In this document: positions 7,759 through 11,863 of the stretch, in pieces | Position numbering within the stretch: position 1 is the stretch's first letter | Layout: the number at the start of each line of letters is the position of its first letter | IMG/VR virus record: IMGVR_UViG_3300032268_000690 | Span: 1-25,276 of that record | Reading direction: 5' to 3' (one strand) | Origin: a virus | Length of the DNA: 25,276 nucleotides | Notes under the pieces: model-generated | Told to the model about the DNA's origin: nothing | The model's input: the letters and a program-made list of their open reading frames with translations, nothing else | Databases searched by the model: none | Made by a program: the position numbers and the translations under genes

Positions 7759-8565
7759 ATGGCAAGGATTAGAGATATAAAACCTGAGTTTTGGGATGAT
7801 GAGAAAATGGCTGAAGTACCCATGTCAGGCAGGTTATTTTTTATAGGCATGTGGAACTTCGCTGATGATAACGGAGTAATCACAACCTCAATAAAATGGC
7901 TCAAAACAAAGATTTTTCCTTACGATACTATTCGTGACATAGAAGTGGAGTCATGGTTAGATTCCTTAGTAAAGAACCGGATGTTAATCCCTTTCAGCCA
8001 CGGCGAAAAAGGCTATTACGTTATCCGCAGCTTTCGTAGCCATCAAATCATCGACAAGCGTTGGTTAAAAGAGATAGTTCCCACACAAATTGTGGATGAA
8101 ATACTATCAAATACAAACCACAGCGAGACCACCACGAGACCACTATGTGACCACCACGATGGTATTGGTATTGGTATTGGTATTGGTATTGGTATTGGTA
8201 TTGGTATGGGAGATAATACGGCTGAAGCCGAATCGCCCTCTCCTAAAAAATCAAAAAAAGAAAAATCTATTGCCCATCATTTTCGTGACAGTATGTATTT
8301 CGACAAAAATTTATTTTCAGAAGCGCTTGTCAATACCCAATACGCTGAAGCTGATATAGATTTTTACTACGAATCGGCACTTAATTGGAGCGATTCAAAA
8401 ACTACAAATCGAAAAGCAAACTGGCTCGCCACCATTAAAAATTGGATGCTCAGGGATATTTCTGAGGGAAAATTCAAAACAAAAAATCAATCAAATGGAA
8501 AAAAGAATTGGGGAGCTCCTTCCAAGGCCACCAAAGAAGATAGTGCGTATGCCGCCGGACTTTGA
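7759..8565 (+). CDS. DnaD-like phage replication initiator (replisome organizer)
   Basis: The start MARIRDIKPEFWDDEKMAEV and the following ~110 residues, including FIGMWNFADDNGVI and the YVIRSFRSHQIID strand-helix, match the winged-helix N-terminal domain of phage replisome organizers. A low-complexity linker of seven Gly-Ile repeats plus Gly-Met-Gly follows, encoded by a hexanucleotide tandem repeat. The C-terminal helical domain (FYYESALNWSDSKTTNRKANWLATIKNWML) is of the kind that recruits helicase loaders. It probably binds the phage origin and brings in the DnaC-like ATPase encoded next, and through it the host replicative helicase. The origin may lie in or near this gene, but I see no clear iteron array. 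The next gene overlaps its end by up to 71 bases. Confidence 0.75.
   Translation: MARIRDIKPEFWDDEKMAEVPMSGRLFFIGMWNFADDNGVITTSIKWLKTKIFPYDTIRDIEVESWLDSLVKNRMLIPFSHGEKGYYVIRSFRSHQIIDKRWLKEIVPTQIVDEILSNTNHSETTTRPLCDHHDGIGIGIGIGIGIGIGMGDNTAEAESPSPKKSKKEKSIAHHFRDSMYFDKNLFSEALVNTQYAEADIDFYYESALNWSDSKTTNRKANWLATIKNWMLRDISEGKFKTKNQSNGKKNWGAPSKATKEDSAYAAGL
8161..8208 (+). repeat. (GGTATT)7 hexanucleotide microsatellite
   Basis: Seven perfect GGTATT units at 8161-8202 are followed by one imperfect unit (GGTATG, 8203-8208). In frame they encode (Gly-Ile)7-Gly-Met. Each unit adds or removes two residues without a frameshift, so the linker length between the two domains of the initiator may vary between phage genomes. 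Confidence 0.95.
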
Positions 8566-10118: not shown

Positions 10119-10475
10119 ATGAAAAAACTTATTCCTTTCACTTTAGAAAGATGGAAACAAGGTAACTGCACACCTAAAACGGCAGACGGGAGAGAAGTAA
10201 AAGATTTGGTATATCAGCCAAGCCAAATTGCTATTGCTGATTATGTTTTTTGTGGAATATTAGAAGGGTATAGGCAAACATGGCAATCAAATGGTGTTTT
10301 TTGTAAAACTAAAACTGGCATAAATTTTAACCTCATGCTCGAAGTGGATTGTGAAGTTGTGTATGTGAGTTTGTTTAGATATGAAGATGGGACTATATCT
10401 TCAATGCTACATCTTATCTCAGGATCATGGGAAAAGAGCCATAGTTTCATCAAAGAAATAAAAGTAGAGTTATGA
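10119..10475 (+). CDS. hypothetical phage protein (118 aa)
   Basis: I chose the ATG at 10119 (MKKLIPFTLERWKQGN) over an in-frame ATG at 10068, because the upstream part overlaps the preceding gene and is polar low-complexity, whereas 10119 follows an AT-rich leader. The pattern of F-x-L-E-R-W-K-Q-G at the start, TADGREVKDLVY and a later strand-rich half with RYEDGTISS is of a type I associate with small beta-rich proteins common in Bacteroidota phages, of unknown function. Its stop overlaps the start of the YopX-like pseudogene (ATGA), so the two once formed a coupled pair. Confidence 0.6.
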   Translation: MKKLIPFTLERWKQGNCTPKTADGREVKDLVYQPSQIAIADYVFCGILEGYRQTWQSNGVFCKTKTGINFNLMLEVDCEVVYVSLFRYEDGTISSMLHLISGSWEKSHSFIKEIKVEL

Positions 10476-10825
10476 ACATAGAGATAAAATTTAGGGCATT
10501 CCACAAAGATTTCGGGTAAATGGTTTACACTAAAGGAGGTTGCATCTTTGAAAAAAGGGAATTTTCCCCATTTGTTTTTGAGGTAGGGTTTAGTCATTAT
10601 CCAGAAATCTAATGGGATATCATGCAATACACCGGACTAAAAGACAAGAACGGAAAGGAGATTTATTAAGGGGATATTGTTGATTATGGAAACAACAGAT
10701 TTATGCCTGTTGAATTTATTAATGGCACATTCTGTATCTGTAAAAACACTGCTATGTCAACACTTATGACGTTATATTCAGTAATCGGTAACATTTACGA
10801 AAACCCTGAATTATTAAAACCATGA
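10472..10825 (+). pseudogene. YopX-family protein, broken by three in-frame TAA codons
   Basis: Read as one frame, these 118 codons encode a recognisable YopX-type protein. The start is MNIEIKFRAFHKDFG, and the hallmark block MQYTGLKDKNGKEIY-x-GDIVDYG and the usual end VIGNIYENPELL are present. The frame is interrupted three times, always by TAA: 10517-10519 (where Lys or Glu is usual before MVY), 10610-10612, and 10667-10669 (in the place of the Glu of EIYEGDIV). There is no frameshift over the whole length. YopX proteins are common in phages of Gram-positive and Bacteroidota hosts and their function is poorly known. The ATGA overlap with the upstream gene is preserved. I read it as a recently decayed gene; recoding is considered under findings. 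Confidence 0.8.
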
Positions 10826-10897: not shown

Positions 10898-10983
10898 AGA
10901 AGAATAATCATCTGGAACTGTTGTAAAGAATTATTTTTTATAGTGAATTTATCAGGTTGAACCCGACTACTGTACTATGATTC

Positions 10984-11006
10984 CCCAACCGATTATTAAC
11001 TTTTAA
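10984..11006 (+). repeat. leader repeat, copy A (short)
   Basis: This 23-base segment matches the first 23 bases of the two longer repeats at 11208 and 11555 with one mismatch (C for A at the seventh base). It ends ten bases before the ATG at 11017. All three copies lie shortly upstream of a small gene. Confidence 0.85.
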
Positions 11007-11016
11007 AAATTGAAAC

Positions 11017-11199
11017 ATGGATAAAAAAACATTGAAGGATTTAATTCAAGAAATGGAACATAGGGTATTTTCTTTTATTTGTCATCGTGATTTTTACACT
11101 AAAGAATGTGATTTATATTATTATTGGGATGGTAAGCGTTCCGAAGCAGCTTTCATGGTTGAGAAATTGACAGCAATTTTACAAGGTGAAAGCCAGTAA
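11017..11199 (+). CDS. hypothetical small protein of the accessory region (60 aa)
   Basis: Not recognised. The protein begins with a charged helix (DKKTLKDLIQEMEHRVFSFI) and has an aromatic, Cys-containing centre (CHRDFYTKECDLYYYWDGKR) and a C-terminal helix (SEAAFMVEKLTAIL). No membrane segment. Two Cys and one adjacent His could in principle bind metal, but the spacing is not a known finger. The ATG follows copy A of the leader repeat after ten bases. Because the third repeat copy heads an Acb2/Tad1-like anti-defence gene, this protein is a candidate for a related accessory role; that is inference from layout only. Confidence 0.55.
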   Translation: MDKKTLKDLIQEMEHRVFSFICHRDFYTKECDLYYYWDGKRSEAAFMVEKLTAILQGESQ

Positions 11200-11207
11200 T
11201 CACCACC

Positions 11208-11259
11208 CCCAACAGATTATTAACTTTTAACAGCCTTGAGCGGCTTTGTAAAACTCACA
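11208..11259 (+). repeat. leader repeat, copy B (52 bp)
   Basis: This segment is identical over 52 bases to 11555-11606. It contains TTATTAACTTTTAA, then AGCC-TTGAGC-GGCT, which can form a short stem, then TTTGTAAAACTCACA. It ends ten bases before the ATG at 11269. It may be a shared promoter/leader or the trace of cassette duplication. Confidence 0.95.
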
Positions 11260-11268
11260 ACAATTAAT

Positions 11269-11490
11269 ATGGCAAAGACAATAAGAGCCAAATTTAACGT
11301 AGCCGAGATTGCCAAATATGGTAACGGTGGCGGAACTAAAGTAACGCTAATGCCTGTAATGGGTAATAGCGAAGAGAACAAAGCCTTTTGGCAATATACG
11401 CCAAGCGGTAAAATCGAATTGCACATTTCAAATCCAGAAGCGGAGTTTGAATTTGGCGAGTATTACATTGATTTTACAAAGGCAGAGTAA
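11269..11490 (+). CDS. conserved small phage protein of unknown function (73 aa)
   Basis: I start at ATG 11269 (MAKTIRAKFNVAEIAKYG); a longer reading from a TTG at 11236 would begin inside the leader repeat. The product has the pattern of a small beta-rich protein seen in many phages: a basic first strand (RAKFNV), TKVTLMPVM, SEENKAFWQYTPSGKIELHISNP, and an acidic end with FGEYYIDFTKAE. The family is known to me as widespread but without a function. It is soluble and has no catalytic signature. The gene stands alone between the two long repeat copies, like a cassette, followed by a long hairpin. Confidence 0.75.
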   Translation: MAKTIRAKFNVAEIAKYGNGGGTKVTLMPVMGNSEENKAFWQYTPSGKIELHISNPEAEFEFGEYYIDFTKAE

Positions 11491-11501
11491 TTTATTGGGT
11501 A

Positions 11502-11531
11502 GTAGGATGCTCTTTTCGGAGGGTGTCCTAC
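11502..11531 (+). other. 13-bp GU-rich hairpin with TTCG loop
   Basis: GTAGGATGCTCTT (11502-11514) pairs with GAGGGTGTCCTAC (11519-11531) around TTCG. Thirteen consecutive pairs form if G-U pairs are allowed; four of them are wobble pairs, which points to an RNA rather than a DNA element. No T-tract follows. It sits between the 73-aa gene and the third leader repeat and could be a stability element, a processing site or a degenerate terminator. Confidence 0.6.
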
Positions 11532-11554
11532 GCTTGCCGCTAACACGCTGCTCT

Positions 11555-11606
11555 CCCAACAGATTATTAACTTTTAACAGCCTTGAGCGGCTTTGTAAAA
11601 CTCACA
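11555..11606 (+). repeat. leader repeat, copy C (52 bp)
   Basis: Exact copy of 11208-11259, 347 bases downstream. It ends eight bases before the ATG of the Acb2/Tad1-like gene. Recombination between copies B and C would remove precisely one gene plus its hairpin. Confidence 0.95.
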
Positions 11607-11614
11607 TAAATTTT

Positions 11615-11863
11615 ATGGAACAGATTGAAAAATTAGTAACTCTTGGAGAAGGCCGTGTAAGGGTAAACGAAAACCCATCAGAAAGCGATTATGTAAATGA
11701 CATCAAAGTCGCTGCTGCTGCATTGATTGACCTTATTGATGGTGCAGCAGGAAATCCTAAATGGACTGATTATGAACTGACAGAATGGTTAACGCTAAAA
11801 GACTTGGCAATGATCGCTGCTGAACAATCAGCAATGTGGGCTGTAAAAGCGGCTACTTGTTAA
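11615..11863 (+). CDS. Acb2/Tad1-like cyclic nucleotide sponge (anti-CBASS/anti-Thoeris)
   Basis: The 82-aa protein has the layout I know from the Acb2/Tad1 hairpin family: LGEGRVRVNENPSES near the start (the family has G-x-x-R-V-R-V-x-F-N-P-S), then DIKVAAAALIDLID, a short acidic turn, and the closing helix AEQSAMWAVKAATC (family pattern E-x-A-M-W-A-V-K-A-A-T). Known members form small helical oligomers that bind cyclic nucleotides or gcADPR signals and so silence CBASS or Thoeris defence. One difference is Glu in place of the usual Phe in the FNPS box. I start at ATG 11615, just after leader repeat C; an upstream in-frame ATG at 11447 lies inside the previous gene. Family recognised from memory of the pattern. 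Confidence 0.7.
   Translation: MEQIEKLVTLGEGRVRVNENPSESDYVNDIKVAAAALIDLIDGAAGNPKWTDYELTEWLTLKDLAMIAAEQSAMWAVKAATC

Follow-up and report, generated by a model that had tools for sequence, protein, structure and literature searches.

A 52-nt repeat found twice in the window (the whole stretch of viral DNA analysed here, 25,276 nt) serves two phage mRNAs as their 5′ leader, and comparison of its sequence across phages identifies its 3′ part as an H-type pseudoknot in the mRNA. We propose, with a rough probability of 0.6, that this element is a cis-acting translational control pseudoknot of Bacteroidota phages that gates initiation. Leader pseudoknots are a known general type, of which this is a new RNA in a new setting; apparently a new means of gene control, it could also guide the search for more anti-defence genes. 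Being widespread, structured and absent from Rfam, such an RNA would give a handle on the control of small accessory genes in hosts that lack Shine-Dalgarno initiation, and it is small enough for its structure and binding to be studied easily.

The preliminary description of this DNA had reported two exact copies of the 52-mer and a 23-nt partial copy, ending 8-10 nt ahead of the start codons of three unrelated small genes, and these observations were reproduced. The exact copies lie on the + strand at 11208-11259, ahead of gene 2, and at 11555-11606, ahead of the acb2/tad1-like gene; a 52-mer match was seen in 0 of 100 dinucleotide shuffles. The partial copy (10984-11006, +; CCCAACCGATTATTAACTTTTAA) matches in 22 of 23 bases, consists of the 5′ module only and is without the pseudoknot. 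The ATG codons at 11017, 11269 and 11615 lie 10, 9 and 8 nt past their respective leader copies. The genes that they open, all on the + strand, are unrelated by sequence: gene 1 (60 aa, 11017-11199) is a conserved neighbour of acb2 in relatives, gene 2 (73 aa, 11269-11490) is a predicted small β-barrel, and the third (82 aa, 11615-11863) is a predicted cyclic-nucleotide sponge. The earlier assignment of this third gene as Acb2/Tad1-like is supported by a match to PF24729 (E 1.6e-8, 35 bits against a gathering cut-off of 27). Fold comparison of gene 2 returned a β-barrel, the best match being to ribosomal OB-fold proteins at a non-significant E of 0.22. In distant phages (L056, L058/L028 and L075), relatives of gene 2 likewise stand behind the pseudoknot; at about 5120 in L028, such a relative carries an in-frame TAG where most have W, which could reflect recoding, mutation or an error.

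The repeat is a composite of a 5′ part, AACMGATTATTAACTTTTAA, and a 3′ part, AGCCUUGAGCGGCUUUGUAAAACUCA, whose distributions differ. Gene 1 is preceded by the 5′ part alone, and gene 2 and acb2 by both. The 5′ part is a plain leader that also stands 23-30 nt ahead of the start codons of a variety of other phage genes, in L015 on three consecutive occasions, with nothing in between. Within the window the AACMGATTATTAACTTTTAA module occurs at 10991, 11215 and 11562, and L015 and L018 are among the other contigs in which it is seen. Exact copies of the 3′ part, AGCCTTGAGCGGCTTTGTAAAACTCA, occur in four other viral contigs, always 10 nt ahead of an Acb2/Tad1 gene. Because acb2 in L002 and L013 has the 3′ part and no 5′ part, the two parts are independent of each other.

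Pseudoknot 1 occupies 11232-11257 (+) and pseudoknot 2, identical in sequence, 11579-11604 (+), ending 10 nt ahead of the acb2 ATG; both are defined by covariation and score 49.6 and 49.3 bits, respectively, with the R1 model. In pseudoknot 1, stem S1 (AGCC, 11232-11235, with GGCT, 11242-11245; +) is crossed by stem S2 (TGAG, 11237-11240, with CTCA, 11254-11257; +), and the loops, on the same strand, are L1 (T, 11236), L2 (C, 11241) and L3 (TTGTAAAA, 11246-11253). The general anatomy is an S1 of 3-4 bp, an L1 of 1 nt, an S2 of 3-4 bp, an L2 of 1-2 nt and an A-rich L3 of 7-11 nt. Nested folding energies of the leader were unremarkable and not significant, and so the case for the pseudoknot rests on covariation. 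The first compensatory changes, TGGG/CCCA ahead of an Acb2 relative and TGGA/TCCA ahead of a gene-2 relative, came from two loci recruited by protein homology only. With the outer S2 pairs unconstrained, a generalised pattern matched 74 stretches in viral contigs. In every distinct match that was read out, the two free S2 pairs were complementary and a start codon lay downstream; the S2 variants were TGAG/CTCA, TGGG/CCCA, TGGA/TCCA and TGGT/ACCA. The same pattern returned 14 stretches from 257 billion genome bases, 11 of them credible and all in Bacteroidota; the three without complementarity (Buttiauxella, a Helicobacteraceae MAG and Runella) resemble chance matches and were used as a chance control. 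The leader is not confined to the window.

Searches in which S1 was freed added the pairs GCT/GGC and GCT/AGC, and those in which L3 was freed added loops of 8-11 nt with an AAA end; an unconstrained pseudoknot descriptor in which L3 was kept loose was swamped by chance matches and was dropped. In alignment A1, 99.7% of cells are paired, and the number of cells with changes on both sides is 26, compared with 7.2 in shuffles (0 of 500), with a covariation of 0.246 compared with 0.117 in shuffles; slid structures pair in only 11-54%, and the invariance of several S1 and S2 positions in A1 reflects ascertainment, these positions having been fixed by the search pattern. Since the pattern fixes some stem positions, an independent set was assembled from relatives of one downstream family recruited by protein alone (n = 50 loci). 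By manual count the leader is present in 19 of these, some of them with forms beyond the reach of every previous pattern: S1 variants GGTC/GGCC, GCTC/GGGC and AGTC/GGCT (GTC/GGC and CTC/GGG), a U-G pair closing S2, and L3 sequences TTATAAAA, TCGTAAAA and TGTATAA. The leader accordingly has the two interleaved helices with compensatory changes by which an H-type pseudoknot is recognised. In the other 31 of the 50 crAss001_48-type relatives, crAss001 included, the element is absent, indicating that leader and gene are separable; likewise, none of the upstream leaders of crAss001, BT24, PV4-TP1, csAssE-Sib and EKP1 contains it. At the level of sequence, these comparisons establish a conserved covarying structure in a fixed place ahead of diverse genes.

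Of 77 genes, 74 have their start codon 7-12 nt past the last S2 base. The gap from the upstream stop codon to the element has a median of about 20 nt and is often 0-3 nt, and among elements with an assignable upstream ORF about half start 20 nt or less past its stop. Placement directly after a stop codon suggests that the element acts on translation rather than as a promoter, and the fixed distance to the ATG argues for the same, such that we consider action on translation probable. The idea of exchangeable modules behind the repeat is retained in part, as leader and genes swap independently, but the shared element is an RNA structure, and the promoter that had been suggested is not supported: the intercistronic placement leaves little room for -33/-7 elements and the conserved part is the covarying pseudoknot. 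In L048, L086, L091, L111, L113 and L128 the upstream frame enters the pseudoknot and ends at a TAA in L3, which could reflect translational coupling or chance.

These data allow us to propose a mechanism. Bacteroidia initiate translation without Shine-Dalgarno use, relying on reduced structure and upstream adenines, and structure close to the AUG normally lowers their initiation (PMC9976891). Given that Bacteroidia need little structure near the AUG, the pseudoknot should block or gate initiation. The folded form would occupy the region that Bacteroidota ribosomes need structure-free, and it most likely gates initiation, with some ligand or RNA-binding protein acting as the switch; once opened, the A-rich L3 would become an adenine-rich leader. 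Small accessory genes with no relation to one another, sponges of immune nucleotide signals among them, have this module in common, and it travels apart from them. We put regulated gating by the element at about even odds.

We prefer a translational switch to its main rival, a constitutive translation enhancer, in which the pseudoknot would dock on the 30S platform or, substituting for a Shine-Dalgarno sequence, keep the start region open; a gene inserted into any operon would then be translated independently. The tight AUG spacing, the placement straight after upstream stop codons, the many unrelated genes that use the pseudoknot and the lack of Shine-Dalgarno use in Bacteroidota (PMC9976891) are all consistent with an enhancer, which we regard as possible though rather unlikely. 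If the element were a general enhancer, many genes should carry it, whereas 37 of 40 viral records hold one copy and 3 of 40 hold two, counts that are a lower bound given that the model misses divergent copies (L218 shares a contig with L144); the inhibitory effect of structure near the AUG in Bacteroidia (PMC9976891) also speaks against it. Against the switch itself, a constitutive enhancer or a role in mRNA stability would fit the same anatomy, and members of these gene families can be without the element. The intercistronic position would suit a signal for RNA stability or processing, by which the cistron behind it is protected or released, and compact structures can shield the 5′ ends of RNA, but such a signal has no need of a fixed AUG distance, and L3 is highly conserved in sequence; this explanation is unlikely. 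It would be a long shot for the pseudoknot to be a riboswitch for a host immune nucleotide signal (a cyclic oligonucleotide or an NAD-derived molecule) or another infection cue; the sponge and other counter-defence genes would then be switched on only when needed.

The 77 distinct proteins encoded downstream of the element fall into 26 similarity clusters, some of which are joined only via shared domains. This agrees with the earlier suggestion of one leader with different genes behind it, and the downstream genes are not one fixed block. Pfam families among these proteins are Tad2-like, Acb2/Tad1, RyR, DUF4406, DUF4494 and crAss001_48-related; most clusters match no known function. The Tad2-like (PF11195) and Acb2/Tad1 (PF24729) proteins pass the Pfam cut-offs and recur behind the leader, which, as anticipated, works as a bait for anti-defence families, returning Tad2-like and further Acb2/Tad1 proteins. 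In a local search of 2067 ORFs from 76 loci, Tad2 and Acb2 were found solely behind the pseudoknot, a result that is not an unbiased rate as both loci and profiles were chosen via the pseudoknot; the single apparent exception, in L038, is no separate gene but a pseudoknot-led one whose start was assigned to an ATG further upstream. None of these domains occurred in ten sampled neighbouring genes. Given that the leader precedes Tad2 and Acb2/Tad1 genes and that none lacked it in the loci examined, the other families behind it are good counter-defence candidates.

Leader and genes are exchanged independently of each other. In four relatives acb2 directly follows gene 1, and a fifth has an 84-aa gene of unrelated sequence between them, at the place taken by gene 2 in the window, so that the middle gene is exchangeable. 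Gene 2 is followed by a hairpin, GTAGGATGCTC..GGGTGTCCTAC (11502-11531, +), and then by TTGCCGCTAAC (11534-11544, +). The same hairpin stands after pseudoknot-led genes in L050, L054, L060 and L065; in these and in the window (11502-11544) it is followed by TTGCC(G/A)CTAAC, and together the two are possibly the 3′ end of a class of cassette. A shared GTTA(G/T)(G/T)GGCTG(C/G)CGTT motif immediately precedes nine distinct pseudoknot sites, and several of these motifs, by eye, make up the 3′ arm in long, imperfect attC-like palindromes. Small ORFs with TAACG ends were observed in L060 (reverse strand, first 5 kb), L032, L054, L063, L074, L076 and L095; these contigs hold long attC-like palindromes, with pseudoknot-led genes often straight after GTTA(G/T)(G/T)GGCTGCCGTT. 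The order of genes in relatives, the pseudoknot-led gene 2 of distant phages, the hairpin and the attC-like palindromes make a cassette-like gain of gene 2 plausible.

The element itself is very unlikely to be a recombination site of gene cassettes, akin to an integron attC, with pairing in a folded single DNA strand. The repeats flank gene 2, nine pseudoknot sites adjoin the shared motif with several palindromes by eye, L060 holds a cassette-like array, and attC arrays are already known in phages (PMC9892861). Most pseudoknot sites, however, are without the motif, the pseudoknot has no attC R/L boxes, and the constraint concerns one strand only and is tied to a single gene's start codon; the R″/L″/L′/R′ palindrome with GTTRRRY of integron attC is absent from the 52-mer as read from its sequence. 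A recent tandem duplication carrying a promoter and no regulatory RNA, to which the identity of the two 52-mers and the AT-rich, promoter-like 5′ module in the window might point, is scarcely credible given the intercistronic placement and, above all, the conservation and covariation in unrelated phages.

The element was present in 2 of 395 Bacteroidota genomes surveyed and is therefore mainly phage-borne. Its carriers include prophages of Bacteroides neonati and B. gallinarum. An Rfam search of window positions 10900-11700 up to E 5 returned two implausible minus-strand matches far below gathering scores, and the leader gave no match in six other loci; the preQ1-I riboswitch (RF00522) was not among the matches for the window or these loci. 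The preQ1 class I riboswitch is an H-type pseudoknot of about 26-34 nt, with an A-rich third loop and a stem 2 that ends close to where the ribosome enters. The leader resembles it in size, topology, A-rich L3 and stem 2 placement, but differs in its consensus, its 1-nt L1 and its association with phage accessory genes rather than queuosine genes. In T4-type phages, the pseudoknot of the gene 32 mRNA, upstream of the start codon in the leader, is an autogenous translational operator. That pseudoknot serves a single gene and its own protein, whereas the present leader precedes 26 unrelated clusters, which are unlikely to be autoregulated through a single product of their own unless the leaders are all bound by the same protein of phage or host. 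The manA and wcaG motifs of cyanophages are also structured, phage-borne 5′-UTR RNAs, with different structures, hosts and genes (PMC2864571). As in integron cassettes (PMC9892861), some pseudoknot-led genes are found in arrays with attC-like palindromes, by eye; unlike them, the pseudoknot also occurs where no attC-like site was noticed. The families of the Acb2/Tad1 and Tad2 sponges are those behind the leader, and they do not always carry it. A description of this pseudoknot RNA was not found in the literature searched, which did not extend to a large published catalogue of candidate phage RNAs where it may be listed under another name.

Comparison of the window with known phages gave just one short YopX match, and its Acb2 had no match in annotated phages. 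At 10472-10825 the window contains the remnant of a YopX-like gene with stops and frameshifts, its DNA matching YopX of Vibrio phage H188; in L091 an intact YopX gene adjoins a pseudoknot-led gene. Finally, a perfect 6-bp repeat array (TGGTAT) at 8160-8207 lies within an ORF and encodes a Gly-Ile run, and the length of this array is possibly phase-variable.
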